Shown: piece after piece, positions 5,116-18,046 of the stretch
How the letters are laid out: every line of letters begins with the position of its first letter
Numbering within the stretch: position 1 is the first letter of the stretch
Assembly (NCBI GenBank): GCA_028285405.1
Contig: JANQPH010000028.1
Span: 1 to 34,481 of the forward strand
Source: Thermoleophilia bacterium
GTDB lineage: Bacteria > Actinomycetota > Thermoleophilia > Miltoncostaeales > Miltoncostaeaceae
Direction: 5' to 3'
DNA: 34,481 bases
Program-made: the position numbers and the translations under genes
The notes under the pieces: generated by a model
Told to the model about the DNA's origin: nothing
Database searches by the model: none
The model's input: only the letters and a program-made list of their open reading frames with translations

Positions 5116-6714
5116 TCATGTGTGGGCCGCGGTCTGCGCGCGTCGAAGACGGCGCACACCGTGCTCGAGGCTGTCGAGCAGCGCCTCCCACGAGGCCTCG
5201 ATCACGTTCTCGCTGACGCCGATCGTGCCCCACGTCCCGCCGTGGCCGTCGCGGGAGTCGAGCAGCACGCGGGTCGTCGCGGCGGTGCCGTGCGACTCGT
5301 CCAGGATCCGGACCTTGTAGTTCACGAGCTCGATCATCTCGAGCTCGGGGATGCGGCCCCCGAGCGCGCGCCGCACCGCGGTGTCGAGCGCGTTCACCGG
5401 GCCGTTGCCCTCGGCGGTGGCGATCACCCGCTCGTCCTCGTGGACGAGCTTGACCGTCGCCTCGGTCTGGATCCGGCCGTCCTCGCGCTGATCCGTGATG
5501 ACGCGGAAGCTCTCGACGGTGAAGAGCGGCTCGAACTCGCCGGAGTCGCGCTCGATCATGAGCTCGAACGACGCGTCGGCCACCTCGAAGTGGTACCCGC
5601 GGTGCTCGAGGTCCTTCAGCCGAGACAGGATCGCGGCGACCCGCTCCGGGTCCTCGGCGAGCTCGTCGTCGCCGAGCTCACGCGCCTTGGCCACGATCGT
5701 GCCGCGCCCCGACAGCTCGGAGACGAGCATGTTCCGGCTGTTGCCGACCGTCTCGGGGTCGACGTGCTCGAACGTGCGCTCGTCGGCGAGCATGCCGGCG
5801 ACGTGCATGCCGCCCTTGTGGGCGAAGGCGTTGCGGCCGACGTAGGGCGCCCAGCTGTCGAGCTGCACGTTGGCCGTCTCGGCCACCGCGTTGGCGACCT
5901 CGGTCAGTGAGGACAGGGAGTCCTCGGAGACCGTCTCGAAGCCCATCTTCAGGGTCAGCGAGGGGATGATCGAGACGAGGTTCGCGTTGCCCGTGCGCTC
6001 GCCGTAGCCGTTGATCGTGCCCTGCACCTGGCGAGCGCCGCGCTCGACCGCCATCAGGGTGTTGGCGACCGCGCACTCGGCGTCGTTGTGGGTGTGGATG
6101 CCGATCCGGGCGTTGGGCAGCGCATCGCGCACCTCACCGACGATCCGCCCGACCTCATCCGGCAGCGTTGCGCCGTTGGTGTCGCACAGCACGACCCACG
6201 CGGCCCCGTTGCCCTCGGCCGCGCGCAGGCACTCGAGAGCGTAGTCCGGGTGCGCCCGGTACGCGTCGAAGAAGTGCTCGGCGTCGTAGATGACCTCCTT
6301 GCCCTCCCTGACCAGGAAGGCGTTGGAGTCGCCGATCATGGCCAGGTTCTCCTCGCGGCTCACCTTGGTGACCTTCTCGAGGTGGAGATCCCAGGTCTTC
6401 CCGACGATGGTGACGACCGGGGCGAAGCACTCGGCGAGCCCGCGCACGGCCGGGTCCTCCTCGGGGAGCACGCCCCGGCGGCGGGTCATCCCGAACGCGG
6501 CGATCTTGGTGTCGCCGAAGTCCTCGCCGGCGAGCAGGTCGAACAGCTCGCCGTACTTGGGGTTCGACGCCGGGAACCCCGCCTCGACGTAGTGCATGCC
6601 GAACTCGGCCAGGCGCAGCGCGATGTCGAGCTGCTCGCCCGCCGACAGCGACAGGCCCTCTCGCTGCATCCCGTCGCGCAGCGTCGTGTCATAGAGGAGG
6701 ACGGTCTCGCTCAT
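5116..6714 (-). CDS. cimA: (R)-citramalate synthase
   Basis: Condenses pyruvate with acetyl-CoA to (R)-citramalate, the first step of the threonine-independent route to 2-oxobutyrate and isoleucine. The 532-residue protein has the HMGL-like TIM barrel with YDTTLRDGMQREG (8-20; catalytic R13-D14), metal-binding HTH at 207-209 (GIHTHNDAE), NGYGERTGNANL, then a C-terminal regulatory domain (about 370-532) like that of LeuA. The DGMQ form and overall wording match the citramalate-synthase branch rather than isopropylmalate synthase, which is encoded separately at 11464. The ATG (6712-6714) overlaps the ilvE stop by ATGA. The products can be processed by LeuCD and LeuB encoded a few kb away. 2-Isopropylmalate synthase-like activity cannot be excluded without assay. 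Confidence 0.9.
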   Translation of the reverse strand: MSETVLLYDTTLRDGMQREGLSLSAGEQLDIALRLAEFGMHYVEAGFPASNPKYGELFDLLAGEDFGDTKIAAFGMTRRRGVLPEEDPAVRGLAECFAPVVTIVGKTWDLHLEKVTKVSREENLAMIGDSNAFLVREGKEVIYDAEHFFDAYRAHPDYALECLRAAEGNGAAWVVLCDTNGATLPDEVGRIVGEVRDALPNARIGIHTHNDAECAVANTLMAVERGARQVQGTINGYGERTGNANLVSIIPSLTLKMGFETVSEDSLSSLTEVANAVAETANVQLDSWAPYVGRNAFAHKGGMHVAGMLADERTFEHVDPETVGNSRNMLVSELSGRGTIVAKARELGDDELAEDPERVAAILSRLKDLEHRGYHFEVADASFELMIERDSGEFEPLFTVESFRVITDQREDGRIQTEATVKLVHEDERVIATAEGNGPVNALDTAVRRALGGRIPELEMIELVNYKVRILDESHGTAATTRVLLDSRDGHGGTWGTIGVSENVIEASWEALLDSLEHGVRRLRRAQTAAHT

Positions 6715-7661
6715 CGCGCCGCCGCCTCCTCCCCGGGCACCTCGGAGGTCGCGGCGACGACGTCGAGCCATTCCAGGTACTTGGGATCGCGGCCGTGGAT
6801 CGCGGCGTCGAACCGCTGCTGGAGCAGCTTGGTGATCGGTCCGGGCTCGCCGATCTCGTGGTCGTCGACCTCGCGGATCGGGGTGACCTCGGCGGCGGTG
6901 CCGGTGACGAACACCTCGTCCGCGGTGTAGAGCTCGGCGCGCGCGATCTCGCGCTCGACGATGTCGACGCCCTCGTCCTCGGCGATCGTCATCACCGAGT
7001 CGCGTGTGATCCCGGGCAGGATGGATGCCTGCAGCGGCGGCGTCACGAGCACGCCGTCCCGCACGATGAAGATGTTCTCCCCGGAGCCGTCGGCGACGTA
7101 GCCGGCCTCGTTGAGGAGGATGGCCTCCTCGTAACCGGCCCGATGCGTCTCGACCTTGGCGAGGATCGAGTTGAGGTACTGCCCGCCCGCCTTGGCGGTC
7201 GCCGGGATCGTCGTGCTCCCGATCCTCCGCCACGAGGCGATCTTGGCCCTGATCCCGTGCTCGATCCCGTGCTCGCCCAGGTAGGCGCCCCACACCCACG
7301 CGGCGATGGCGACGTCGACCTCCGCGTCGAGCGGGAAGAGCCCCATCGTTCCGTAGCCGCGGAGCACGATCGGGCGGATGTAGCACTCGGACAGCCCGTT
7401 GGTCCGGACCACGTCGTGGACGGCGGAGCGCAGCTGCTCACGGGAGTACGGGATCGGCATGTAGTAGATGCCGGCCGAGGCCTCCATCCGCGCGAGGTGG
7501 TCATCGAGCCGGAACACCGCCGTGCCGATCTCGGTGTCGTACGCGCGAATGCCCTCGAACACGGTGGTGCCGTAGTGCAGCCCGTGCGAGAGCACGTGGA
7601 CCTTGGCGTCGTGCCAGTCCACGAGCTCGCCGTTGAACCAGATCTTGTCGGCTTCCTGCAT
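6711..7661 (-). CDS. ilvE: Branched-chain amino acid aminotransferase
   Basis: Final transamination giving valine, leucine and isoleucine from their 2-oxo acids. The 316-residue fold-type IV PLP enzyme opens with IWFNGELVDWHDAKVHV and SHGLHYGTTVFEGIRAY (25-41), typical of IlvE. The PLP lysine is K157 in ATAKAGGQYLNS; LNEAGYVADGSGENIF and a late TGTAAEVTPIREVD also match. The ATG is at 7659-7661 and a modest GAGG stands upstream. It heads the ilvE-cimA-aminotransferase-argH-glycosylase-tyrS operon. A possible -10 box TAACAT on the minus strand at 7723-7728 would give a leader of about 55 nt, but no clear -35 is seen. Confidence 0.95.
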   Translation of the reverse strand: MQEADKIWFNGELVDWHDAKVHVLSHGLHYGTTVFEGIRAYDTEIGTAVFRLDDHLARMEASAGIYYMPIPYSREQLRSAVHDVVRTNGLSECYIRPIVLRGYGTMGLFPLDAEVDVAIAAWVWGAYLGEHGIEHGIRAKIASWRRIGSTTIPATAKAGGQYLNSILAKVETHRAGYEEAILLNEAGYVADGSGENIFIVRDGVLVTPPLQASILPGITRDSVMTIAEDEGVDIVEREIARAELYTADEVFVTGTAAEVTPIREVDDHEIGEPGPITKLLQQRFDAAIHGRDPKYLEWLDVVAATSEVPGEEAAAR

Positions 7662-10049: not shown

Positions 10050-11464
10050 CAGGCCTCCACCAACTCTGCGTCGAAGTTGCGGACGTCGACGAGGTGGCCA
10101 GTCACCGCGGCCGCGGCCGCCATCTCCGGGCTCACCAGGTGCGTCCGGCCGCCCTTGCCCTGGCGACCCTCGAAGTTGCGGTTGCTCGTCGAGGCACAGC
10201 GCTCACCCGGCTGCAGGATGTCGGGGTTCATCCCCAGGCACATCGAGCACCCGGCGTCGCGCCAGTCGAACCCGGCCGCGCGGAAGACCTCGTCGAGCCC
10301 CTCTTGCTCGGCCTGGGCCTTCACCTGCATCGAGCCGGGGACGACCATCGCCCGGACCGAGCTCGCGACCTGGCGCCCCTTCAGCACCCCGGCGGCGGCC
10401 CGCAGATCCTCGATACGGCCGTTGGTGCACGAGCCCAGGAACACCGTGTCGATGGAGATGTCCTCCATCGCCTCCCCGCCGTTCAGGCCCATGTACTCGA
10501 GCGCCCGCCGGATCGAGTCGGCCTCGCCGGCGTCGGCGCCGTCCTCGGGCACGGGGACCCGGCTGGTGATCGGCGCGACCATGCCCGGCGTCGTGCCCCA
10601 CGTGACCTGCGGCGCGAGCGCCGCGACATCGACGAGGACCTCCTGGTCGAAGGTCGCGTCCGGGTCGCTCGGCAGCTCGCGCCAGGCCTCGACGGCCTCG
10701 ACGAAGTCGCCGGGCGCGCCGGGGCGCGCCTCCAGATACGCGAACGTGGTCTCGTCCGGCGCGACCATGCCGGCCCGGCCGCCGCCCTCGATGGTCATGT
10801 TGCAGATCGTCATGCGGGCTTCCATCGACAAGCTGCGCACCGCGGGCCCGGCGTACTCGACGACGTGGCCGGCCGCGCCCCCCACGCCGATCTGACCGAT
10901 CGCGCCCAGGATCATGTCCTTGGCGGTCACGCCGAGCGCGCGCTCGCCCTCGAACGTGATCCGCATCGTCTTGGCGGGCCGCTGATGGAGGGTCTGGGTC
11001 GCCAGGACGTGCTCGACCTCGCTCGTCCCGATCCCGAACGCCAGCGCGCCGAAGGCCCCGTGGGTCGACGTGTGGCTGTCGCCGCAGACGATGGTCATCC
11101 CCGGCTGTGTCAGCCCGAGCTCGGGCCCGATCACGTGCACGATCCCCTGCCGCGGGCTGCGCAGCGAGAACAGCGGGACCCCGAAGTCGGCGCAGTTGCG
11201 CTCGAGCGCGTCCACCTGCTGGGCCGACAGCGGATCCTCGATGCCCTCGGCACGCCCCTCGGTGGGCACGTTGTGGTCCACGGTCGCGAGCGTCCGATCG
11301 GGCCGGCGAACCGTGCGGCCGGCCAGCCGCAGCCCCTCGAACGCCTGCGGCGAGGTCACCTCGTGCACGAGATGCAGGTCGATGTAGAGGATCGCCGGCT
11401 CCTCGCCGATGGCCGGGCGCACCTCGTGGGCCGCCCAGAGCTTGTCGAACATCGTCTGGCCCAT
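10049..11464 (-). CDS. leuC: 3-isopropylmalate dehydratase large subunit
   Basis: Catalytic 4Fe-4S subunit of isopropylmalate isomerase. The 471-residue protein has [19 protein letters not shown] near the start, [34 protein letters not shown], and the three cluster cysteines in FLGSCTNGR and [10 protein letters not shown], followed by [25 protein letters not shown] chose the ATG at 11462-11464 rather than the GTG one codon upstream: it gives [10 protein letters not shown], as in other LeuC proteins, and is preceded by a strong GGAGGGG. This ATG shares one base with the leuA stop (TGATG). Co-transcribed with leuD. Confidence 0.96.
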
Positions 11465-13038
11465 CACACCCCTCCCGCGACGGCTTCTGCTTCACCTTCG
11501 GCGATCGTGCGGCTCGCGTCGACGGCGCGCAGGTACGCGACCGCGCTCGCCTCGAGCACGTCGGTCGAGACCGACTGCCCCGCGACGGTGCGGCCGTTCA
11601 CGTCGCAGACGACCCGTGCCTCGCCCAGCGCGTCCTTGCCGCTCGTGATGGCGGAGACCGCGTACTCGAGCAGCGTCCCGGTGGTGCCGAGTGCCGCGTC
11701 GATCGCCTTCATCAGCGCGTCGACCGGCCCGTCCCCCGCGGCCTCTGCCTCGAGGCGGGCGTCGTCGTCGATCACCACGACCCGCGCCGTCGGCGTCTCC
11801 TGCGATCCGCCCGAGAACGACAGCTGCTCCAGGCGCATGCCGTCCACGCCTTCGGCGCGCATCTCCTCGCCCAGCAGGGCCTCGAGGTCGGCGGCCGAGA
11901 GGCGCCCCTTCTTGTCGGCGACCTCCTTGAACCGCACGAATACCGCGTCCAGCTCGTCGCGCTCGAGCTCGTACCCCAGCTCGGAGAGCGCGTTCTGGAG
12001 CGCATGGCGGCCCGAGTGCTTGCCCAGCACGATCGAGCTCTGGGCCAGGCCGACGCTCGTGGCGTCCATGATCTCGTAGGTCAGGGGGTTGCGCAGCACA
12101 CCGTGCTGGTGGATCCCGGCCTCGTGCGCGAACGCGTTGCGTCCGACGATGGCCTTGTTCGGCTGCACCGGGTACCCGGTCAGCCGGCTGATCAGCCGGC
12201 TCGCGCGTGTGATCTCGGTGGTCTCGATCCCGCTCCACAGGCCGTTCAGGTCCTCGGCCCGCGTGCGGAGGATCATCGCGATCTCCTCGAGGCTGGCGTT
12301 GCCCGCGCGCTCCCCGATCCCGTTCACGCAGCACTCGACCTGGCGGGCGCCGACGTGGACCCCGGCCAGCGAGTTGGCGACGGCCAGCCCCAGGTCGTTG
12401 TGGCAGTGCACCGACAGCGTCACATCCGACAGCGCCGGCACCCGCTCGTAGAGCTCCAGCAGGAAGCTCTGGAACTCGGTGGGCATCGTGTAGCCGACCG
12501 TGTCGGGGATGTTGATCGTCGTCGCCCCGGCCTCGATGGCCGCGCCGACCACCTCGGCGACGAACTCGCGGTCCGAGCGGGTGGCGTCCTCGCACGAGAA
12601 CTCGACGTCCTCGACGATCGATCGGGCCAGCCGCACCGCGTCGACCGCGGCGGCGAGCACCTGGGCGCGATCCATCCGCAGCTTGTGCGCGAGGTGGATG
12701 TCGCTGGTGGCGATGAAGGTGTGGATCCGCGGGCGCTCGGCGGGCTCGACGGCCGCTCCGGCCCTGGTCACGTCCTTCTCGTTGGCGCGCGCGAGGGCCG
12801 CGACGGTGATCCCGGAGACCTCCTCCGAGAGGGCGCGCACCCCCTCGAAGTCGCCGGGCGACGTGATCGGGAAGCCCGCCTCGACGATGTCGACGCCGAG
12901 TCGCGCGAGCTGGTGTCCGATCTCGACCTTGTCGTGCGTGCTCAGGTGGATGCCCGGCGACTGCTCGCCGTCACGCAAGGTGGTGTCGAAGATGTAGACG
13001 CGGTCCTCTGGGCGACCGCTCGCCTCGTCGGCGGTCAT
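11464..13038 (-). CDS. leuA: 2-isopropylmalate synthase
   Basis: First committed step of leucine synthesis: acetyl-CoA plus 2-oxoisovalerate to 2-isopropylmalate. The 524-residue protein has [13 protein letters not shown] (17-29, catalytic R22-D23), HCHND metal-binding residues at 211-215, [17 protein letters not shown], and a C-terminal allosteric domain from about residue 400, the usual site of leucine feedback. The ATG at 13036-13038 is preferred over one eight codons earlier because AGAAGGAG stands six bases before it. A leucine-rich leader peptide and hairpins lie 75-180 bases upstream, suggesting that expression responds to charged tRNA-Leu. It is the first structural gene of leuA-leuC-leuD-CMD-leuB. 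Confidence 0.96.
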
Positions 13039-13077
13039 GCTCGGCTCCTTCTCGATCGGCATCGGTGGCTCGGTGTC

Positions 13078-13092
13078 GCCCGCAGCGCGGGC
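13078..13092 (-). other. Second hairpin in the leuA leader
   Basis: The minus-strand sequence GCCCGCGCTGCGGGC folds as a six-base-pair stem with a three-base loop, 39 bases before the leuA ATG. No U-tract follows, so it is not a classical intrinsic terminator. Together with the hairpin at 13107-13124 it could form alternative structures controlling entry into leuA. Confidence 0.45.
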
Positions 13093-13106
13093 CCGGGTGT
13101 CAGCAT

Positions 13107-13124
13107 CTCCCCCTACCGGGGGAG
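13107..13124 (-). promoter_or_regulatory. Hairpin overlapping the end of the leucine leader peptide
   Basis: CTCCCCCGGTAGGGGGAG is a perfect seven-base-pair stem with a four-base loop. It contains the last leucine, proline and arginine codons and the stop of the leader peptide (13113-13115). A ribosome translating or stalled at the leucine run would cover this hairpin, which is the geometry expected of an attenuator switch. Confidence 0.55.
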
Positions 13125-13214
13125 GAGCAGACCGAGGCCGAGAAGGGCACCCTCGAGCAGCGCGGCGTCGCCGGCGACGATCGGTGAGCTCGAGACGAGG
13201 GTGCGCGAATCCAT
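13113..13214 (-). CDS. Leucine-rich leader peptide upstream of leuA (probable attenuator)
   Basis: A 33-codon frame, ATG (13212-13214) to TAG (13113-13115). Its C-terminal half contains ten leucines' worth of emphasis in little space: LL-E-GA-LL-G-L-G-LLL-PR, i.e. eight leucines in 13 residues, ending in GLGLLLPR. It sits 74 bases upstream of the leuA ATG and is preceded by a -10-like TATCCT nine bases before its start codon. The stop codon lies inside a perfect hairpin. The known parallel is the leader peptide of enterobacterial leu operons and of actinobacterial amino acid operons, in which ribosome stalling on leucine codons sets the downstream RNA fold. No U-tract is seen, so the output could be translational or Rho-linked. 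Confidence 0.68.
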   Translation of the reverse strand: MDSRTLVSSSPIVAGDAALLEGALLGLGLLLPR

Positions 13215-13223
13215 CGGTCGTCG

Positions 13224-13252
13224 AGGATACCGCCTCCCTGGCGGGGATTCCA
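13224..13252 (-). promoter_or_regulatory. Probable promoter of the leu operon
   Basis: On the minus strand, -10-like TATCCT (13224-13229) lies nine bases before the leader-peptide ATG, with a weak -35-like TGGAAT (13247-13252) at a 17-base spacing. Initiation near 13215-13217 would give a leader-peptide mRNA with almost no 5' UTR. Confidence 0.5.
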
Positions 13253-17505: not shown

Positions 17506-17991
17506 CTAGGTGGTGGTCGATCCCCGCCCGAGCGCGACCACTCCGGTCTTGACCAGCTCGATCAGGCCGAAGGGGCGCATCAGCTCCTCGAAGTCGACCA
17601 GCTGCTCGGCGGAGCCCGTGATCTGAACGGTCATCGCGTCGGCGGTGACGTCCGAGATCTCGGCGCCGAAGATCTCGACGAGCTGGATGATCTCGGAGCG
17701 GCTCTTTCCGTCGGCCTTGACCTTCACCAGCGCGAGCTCCCGAGCCACCATGTTGCCCGGGTCGAGGTCGCGGATCTTGATGACGTTGACCAGCTTGTCC
17801 AGCTGCTTCGTCACCTGCTCGATCGGGGATCGCGACGCGTCGACGGTGATGGTCATGCGCGAGTACTCCTCGCGCTCGGTCGGGCTGACCGCGAGCGAGT
17901 CGATGTTGAACCCGCGACGGGTGAAGAGGCCCGAGACGCGCGAGAGCACGCCGGGCTTGTTCTCGACCAGGACGGAGAGAGTGTGCTTCAC
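17506..17991 (-). CDS. ilvN: Acetolactate synthase small (regulatory) subunit
   Basis: Regulatory partner of acetolactate synthase; confers valine feedback control. The 161-residue protein has an N-terminal ACT domain (residues 1-77: [31 protein letters not shown]) and the C-terminal ALS small-subunit domain (about 85-158: [31 protein letters not shown]). The start is GTG at 17989-17991, seven bases after a TAGACT box, so the mRNA is probably leaderless. Usually ilvN directly follows the large-subunit gene ilvB; here it heads its operon, and no ilvB is visible in the window. Naming as ilvN rather than ilvH is by convention. Confidence 0.95.
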
Positions 17992-17998
17992 GGCGGGC

Positions 17999-18004
17999 AG
18001 TCTA
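17999..18004 (-). promoter_or_regulatory. -10 box of the ilvN-ilvC operon (leaderless)
   Basis: TAGACT on the minus strand, seven bases before the ilvN GTG, places the predicted transcription start at the start codon. No good -35 is visible. Confidence 0.55.
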
Positions 18005-18046
18005 TCCCTCGCGCGCGGTCGCTCGTGTCCGGCGCTGAACCTGGGC

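Follow-up and report, generated by a model that had tools for sequence, protein, structure and literature searches.

A leucine-rich leader upstream of leuA in Thermoleophilia: a likely ribosome-mediated attenuator of translation initiation

Background

What does a short, leucine-rich reading frame do when it stands directly ahead of leuA in an actinobacterium of the class Thermoleophilia? The question is raised by a stretch of 34,481 nucleotides from a 2.4-Mb draft genome (Thermoleophilia bacterium, assembly GCA_028285405.1, contig JANQPH010000028.1, positions 1 to 34,481; hereafter the window), in which a leader frame of 33 codons (13214-13113, minus strand) sits between serA and leuA. An original prediction, made from the letters alone, had read this frame and two adjacent hairpins as a probable attenuator without a U-tract, perhaps leaderless and either translational or Rho-dependent; its coordinates for the leader, for the hairpins (here P1 and P2), for the leuA start and for a TATCCT box are all correct. 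From computational evidence we consider it likely that the element is a ribosome-mediated leucine attenuator that controls the initiation of leuA translation.

For actinobacterial leuA leaders the mechanism was left open in 2005, with a base stem over the Shine-Dalgarno (SD) sequence, no terminator and ambiguous Streptomyces mutants. The LEU element described then before actinobacterial leuA comprises a Leu-rich leader, a base stem between Leu codons and SD, and a pseudoknot (Seliverstov et al. 2005, PMC1262725).

Results and discussion

The leader and its hairpins are conserved

The features of the element, all on the minus strand and listed in the direction of transcription, are as follows.

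13224-13229, minus: -10-like box TATCCT, 9 nt before the leader ATG (sequence)
13113-13214, minus: leader peptide reading frame, MDSRTLVSSSPIVAGDAALLEGALLGLGLLLPR and a stop, 33 codons, probably leaderless (frame kept in 30 of 30 family loci)
13122-13160, minus: run of leucine codons, residues 19-31, 8 Leu (leader translation)
13125-13148, minus: 5' strand of the base stem P0, within the Leu-codon region (predicted fold; cognate-versus-permuted test)
13107-13124, minus: hairpin P1, CUCCCCC-GGUA-GGGGGAG, 7 bp (sequence; comparison of class sites)
13113-13115, minus: leader stop UAG, which begins in the P1 tetraloop (sequence)
13095-13101, minus: joining segment GACACCC, conserved (alignment of family elements)
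13078-13092, minus: hairpin P2, GCCCGC-GCU-GCGGGC, 6 bp (present in 30 of 30 family loci)
13044-13071, minus: 3' strand of P0, extending over the leuA SD (predicted fold)
13045-13050, minus: leuA SD, AAGGAG (sequence)
11464-13038, minus: leuA, bacterial-type 2-isopropylmalate synthase, the putatively regulated gene (TIGR00973, 677 bits against a cut-off of 599)

The ATG of leuA lies at 13038, 74 nt from the leader stop, and leuC and leuD, identified from their open reading frames, come after leuA.

A search of 61 genomes yielded 30 loci of the window's family, the window included, with a leuA start and upstream DNA. In every one of them the leader occupies the same position and ends in LPR or LPL, its stop falls within the P1 loop, and 67-78 nt separate that stop from the leuA start. 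Counted on register-fixed hairpins, pair 5 of P1 is C-G in 26 loci and U-A in four, while P2 is present throughout and varies on both sides at pairs 4, 5 and 6 with pairing kept. The joining segment, GACAYCC in the family alignment, is nearly invariant. Neither P1 nor P2 is followed by a U-tract, in the window or at the family loci. This architecture of leader and hairpins is conserved far above chance. The original prediction had staked itself on conservation of the frame and its Leu codons among relatives; the frame, the Leu run and both hairpins are indeed conserved, with the same arrangement before leuA in 30 of 30 loci, and the covariation that it had proposed to look for is seen in the pair changes on both sides that keep P1 and P2 paired. 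A second frame, from 13106 (GGGGGAG-AUG) into the leuA start, was dropped because it is not conserved in relatives.

The leader is probably translated, from a leaderless start

Three independent signs, namely the geometry of the start, the position of the Leu codons and their replacement by Ile and Val codons before other genes, point to translation of the leader. A TANNNT box ends 6-9 nt before the in-frame start in 71 of 108 elements of the class and in all 30 of the family, and none of the 108 shows this spacing in any other frame; an SD-like stretch precedes the leader start in only two of the 71 elements that have the box. Because TANNNT lies 6-9 nt upstream and an SD is nearly always absent, the leaders look leaderless, and the transcript probably starts at or next to the AUG, so that the spacing of box and ATG supports what had earlier been offered as a possibility. 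Counted back from the stop, codons -3 to -7 are Leu in 100, 91, 73, 79 and 57% of 67 leuA leaders, respectively, against 4-9% for codons -17 to -20, and the enrichment spans codons -3 to -11.

The same element also precedes short leuA-like, leuB-like or ilvB genes, in family f3 and at one f47 locus. Over the last 14 leader codons we counted a mean of 2.9-3.0 Ile before these ilv-type genes, compared with 0.12 in 59 leuA leaders; for Ile and Val together the difference is 3.9 (permutation p<=5e-5). Four genomes (G038, G043, G397 and G415) carry one leader of each kind, Leu and Ile/Val. Leader codon content thus tracks the pathway, as would hardly be expected if no ribosome read the leader. Within f3, all the short leuA-like and leuB-like genes have Ile/Val-rich leaders on the same scaffold, and the Ile codons suggest that the short leuA-like gene belongs to a branched-chain operon. 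In f3 and in G003, a member of the window's own family, the scaffold stands before a yeast-type leuA, bacterial-type leuA being usual in the class; since it precedes both types, the leader appears to have tracked gene function rather than enzyme type.

Two observations concern the f3 genes themselves. At L114, L107 and L161 the gene is a short leuA paralogue that lacks the C-terminal part. At L103, L123, L131, L132, L139 and L165 it is leuB-like but divergent, its protein scoring well short of the cut-off for leuB, and at some of these loci ilvB follows.

A base stem is predicted to pair the Leu codons with the leuA SD region

The original prediction missed a long base stem, P0, that would bury the leuA SD. 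In the predicted fold of the window, 13148-13125 pairs with 13071-13044, that is, the Leu-codon region with the leuA SD region, and P1 and P2 lie inside. The same topology is predicted in relatives of unrelated sequence (CUUCUUCUUC/GAAGAAGAAG in L173 and UUCUCCUGAUU/GAUCAGGAGGAA in L114), and in L178 the complementarity can be read directly (GCUUCUCC/GGAGAAGC). What is new here is that in the Thermoleophilia element the Leu codons are predicted to pair with a region up to and including the leuA SD.

We compared cognate with permuted leader-SD duplexes, using one element per genus. Over 26 genera, with families f1, f7 and f4 pooled, the cognate duplexes are the stronger (-25.35 versus -21.92 kcal/mol, p<1e-4); by family, p=0.018 in f1 and p=0.0002 in f7. 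Kinship among genera may inflate all of these p values. As a control, the same leaders paired against the P2 region gave p=0.96. P0 thereby lends specific support to the translational version of the mechanism without a U-tract.

A model of leuA control and its alternatives

What computation provides is a conserved frame with its Leu run, covariation in P1 and P2, co-change of the two P0 strands, and codons matched to the pathway. From these we infer the start of the transcript, translation, stalling, and repression with its direction, as follows. The transcript would start at the leader AUG or close beside it, and the leader would be translated leaderless. With ample leucine, the ribosome would pass the Leu codons, reach UAG and depart, whereupon P0 would close over P1 and P2 and mask the leuA SD. 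When charged tRNA-Leu is scarce, the ribosome would stall on the Leu run and cover the 5' strand of P0; the SD would be released and leuA translated, probably together with the leuCD genes behind it. Action of Rho on the untranslated message may contribute. We favour control of translation initiation because a U-tract is absent, family members keep the distance from stop to start, and the P0 test points the same way; intrinsic termination is ruled out by the missing U-tract.

Partition-function calculations agree with the stalling model in direction only. For the window, the computed openness of the SD rises from 0.19 in the free RNA to about 0.5 when a ribosome occupies the Leu run, and is 0.32 when the ribosome stands at the stop; the means over 16 family members are 0.13, 0.27-0.49 and 0.26, respectively. 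Several results weigh against our model. The gain in openness is modest and model-dependent, and several relatives are computed to mask the SD again through other pairs; for these reasons we do not lean on it. The P0 test is not significant in f4 (p=0.13) and finds no effect in f3 alone (n=7, p=0.65). The single-sequence folding energy is unexceptional against shuffles (z -0.9) and so uninformative, which leaves the evidence for structure comparative. Finally, leader mutants of S. coelicolor leuA did not fit classical attenuation (PMC1262725).

Those mutant data, as reported there, would suit an RNA element bound by a protein or ligand, with the Leu-rich frame as a by-product; Seliverstov et al. 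proposed a binding protein for the LEU element (PMC1262725), and the near-invariance of the GACAYCC segment in the window's family would also fit. We nevertheless regard this explanation as very improbable here, given the Ile/Val codons before ilv-type genes, the restriction of the -10 box and start to the coding frame, and the lack, apart from P1, of any primary-sequence core common to all families of the class. We give equally little credence to a structural brake on translation without amino acid sensing, in which the Leu run is a mere consequence of the base stem: the Leu codons do face the SD strand, and CUC and CUU are natural complements of an SD, but such a brake leaves the Ile/Val codons before ilv-type genes unexplained, and the Leu enrichment extends outside the paired stretch.

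That the leader instead attenuates transcription seems to us unlikely, if less far-fetched. Release at UAG would then leave the RNA open to Rho, or the polymerase would be stopped by P1 and P2; a stalled ribosome would shield the RNA, and the SD helix would be secondary. The same leader evidence would serve, the RNA between leader and leuA is C-rich, and leuA leaders in other actinobacterial genomes (L042-L045) appear to use intrinsic terminators; however, P1 and P2 lack a following U-tract in the window and its family, and it is the SD region that stands out in the P0 test. For attenuation at the level of translation initiation, the replacement of Leu by Ile/Val codons on one scaffold argues for translation of the leader as the sensor, and the stem that masks the SD would name the controlled step, so that the Thermoleophilia offer a cleaner case than the one left open in 2005.

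Comparison with known leaders

The Thermoleophilia element resembles the LEU element (PMC1262725) in its Leu-rich leader frame upstream of leuA, in a base stem between Leu codons and leuA SD, and in having no terminator. They differ inside that stem, where LEU has a GCCGCGRCGRGG core and a pseudoknot and the Thermoleophilia element has P1, often with the stop codon, and P2. Further, the LEU elements of actinomycetes precede yeast-type leuA, whereas the Thermoleophilia element usually precedes the bacterial type and, unlike LEU, also stands before leuA-like, leuB-like and ilvB genes with Ile/Val codons. A covariance model of seven actinomycete leaders, which covers the main inner stem only and leaves the pseudoknot outside, recovers three held-out actinomycete leaders at 53-86 bits and matches no Thermoleophilia site, 13036-13130 included. 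Conversely, a covariance model of the Thermoleophilia element matches none of the actinomycete elements L032-L045. This reciprocal negative rules out membership in the LEU element proper: to judge from the covariance models, the Thermoleophilia element would work like LEU and shares its base stem, yet is not the same RNA.

Upstream of yeast-type leuA at L042-L045 we observed a Leu-rich leader and, after it, a G+C-rich hairpin with a U-rich tract, an arrangement that resembles a classical terminator-type attenuator.

In erm and cat translational attenuators, a ribosome stalled in the leader frame opens a helix that masks the SD of the next gene. The Thermoleophilia element is predicted to share with them a helix that holds the SD of the regulated gene and has its other strand in the leader frame; stalling at erm and cat is drug-dependent, whereas here a missing charged tRNA would cause it, and the sensing codons lie in the masking strand. 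With the classical trp- and leu-type attenuators of enterobacteria the element has in common a run of end-product codons in a short leader before a biosynthetic gene, but it has neither a terminator with a U-tract nor an antiterminator/terminator pair. The leuL1 leader of Streptomyces lividans (MRFGLLLLSCRGEGL), measured as leaderless (PMC8079986), and the leu leader of C. diphtheriae (PMC5784534) are likewise Leu-rich, precede leuA and lack a typical intrinsic terminator; they are of the actinomycete (LEU) form, and differ in sequence and inner fold.

No Rfam 15 family matched at its gathering score, so the element would add an RNA family absent from that database. In the open literature we found no paper that joins leader peptide, attenuation and Thermoleophilia, most subscription journals lying outside the search. 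On balance we lean towards an undescribed, class-wide family of branched-chain amino acid attenuators that are leaderless, lack both terminator and antiterminator, use the sensing codons as the SD-masking strand and have been recoded from Leu to Ile/Val before ilv-type operons.

Distribution in the class and beyond

The covariance model of the Thermoleophilia element, in which P2 and the outermost P1 pairs are imperfect and which relies mostly on the sequence profile and P1, detects the element in 114 of the 399 class genomes, a few of its weakest matches being chance ones in other genes. In a phylum sample of 396 genomes it matches 16 at E<=0.001, of which 15 belong to the class; the matches in the remaining genome (G707) are repeats, not at leuA, and were rejected. 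In class genomes unmatched at that threshold, a Leu run and a hairpin resembling P1 precede leuA at all 12 leuA loci that we read. Of 127 class sites, a set that contains a few chance matches, 126 have a recognisable P1, as CTCCCCC/GGGGGAG in 71 and CTTCCCC/GGGGAAG in 16; in families f2, f5 and f6 the leader stop lies 3' of P1, not within the loop. In one class genome with a yeast-type leuA (L047) we saw no such leader.

The pattern CTNCTNCTCCCCCGNTAGGGGGAG, which fixes 21 bases, occurs 31 times among 84,980 species genomes, and at 29 of these matches leuA lies within 420 nt downstream. One match, in Gallionella, is taken as chance because no leuA is nearby. Svornostia abyssi J379, a named strain with a finished public genome, carries such a leader.

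Some individual sites call for comment. The element occurs twice, inverted, at the end of a contig at L203 (G027 contig 75, 126-149 and 521-544), probably an assembly artefact. Public contigs labelled Bifidobacterium breve (L196 and L219) carry the element, and the labels look wrong. In G216, a related leader, LILGLILPR and a stop, with a P1-like hairpin precedes leuC (TIGR02083; L159), and the genome also holds a separate leuA element (L130).

Other branched-chain genes of the source genome

In the one region that we inspected upstream of an ilvB-like gene of the source genome, no leader of the Ile/Val type was seen. The window encodes a citramalate synthase (5164-6720, minus strand; TIGR00977, 637 bits), before which the covariance-model search found no element, and the pyruvate route to isoleucine thus seems to be present near the leu genes. 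Finally, at 17991-18020 (minus strand) an ilvN-like open reading frame begins with GTG about 7 bases after TAGACT and may be leaderless too.
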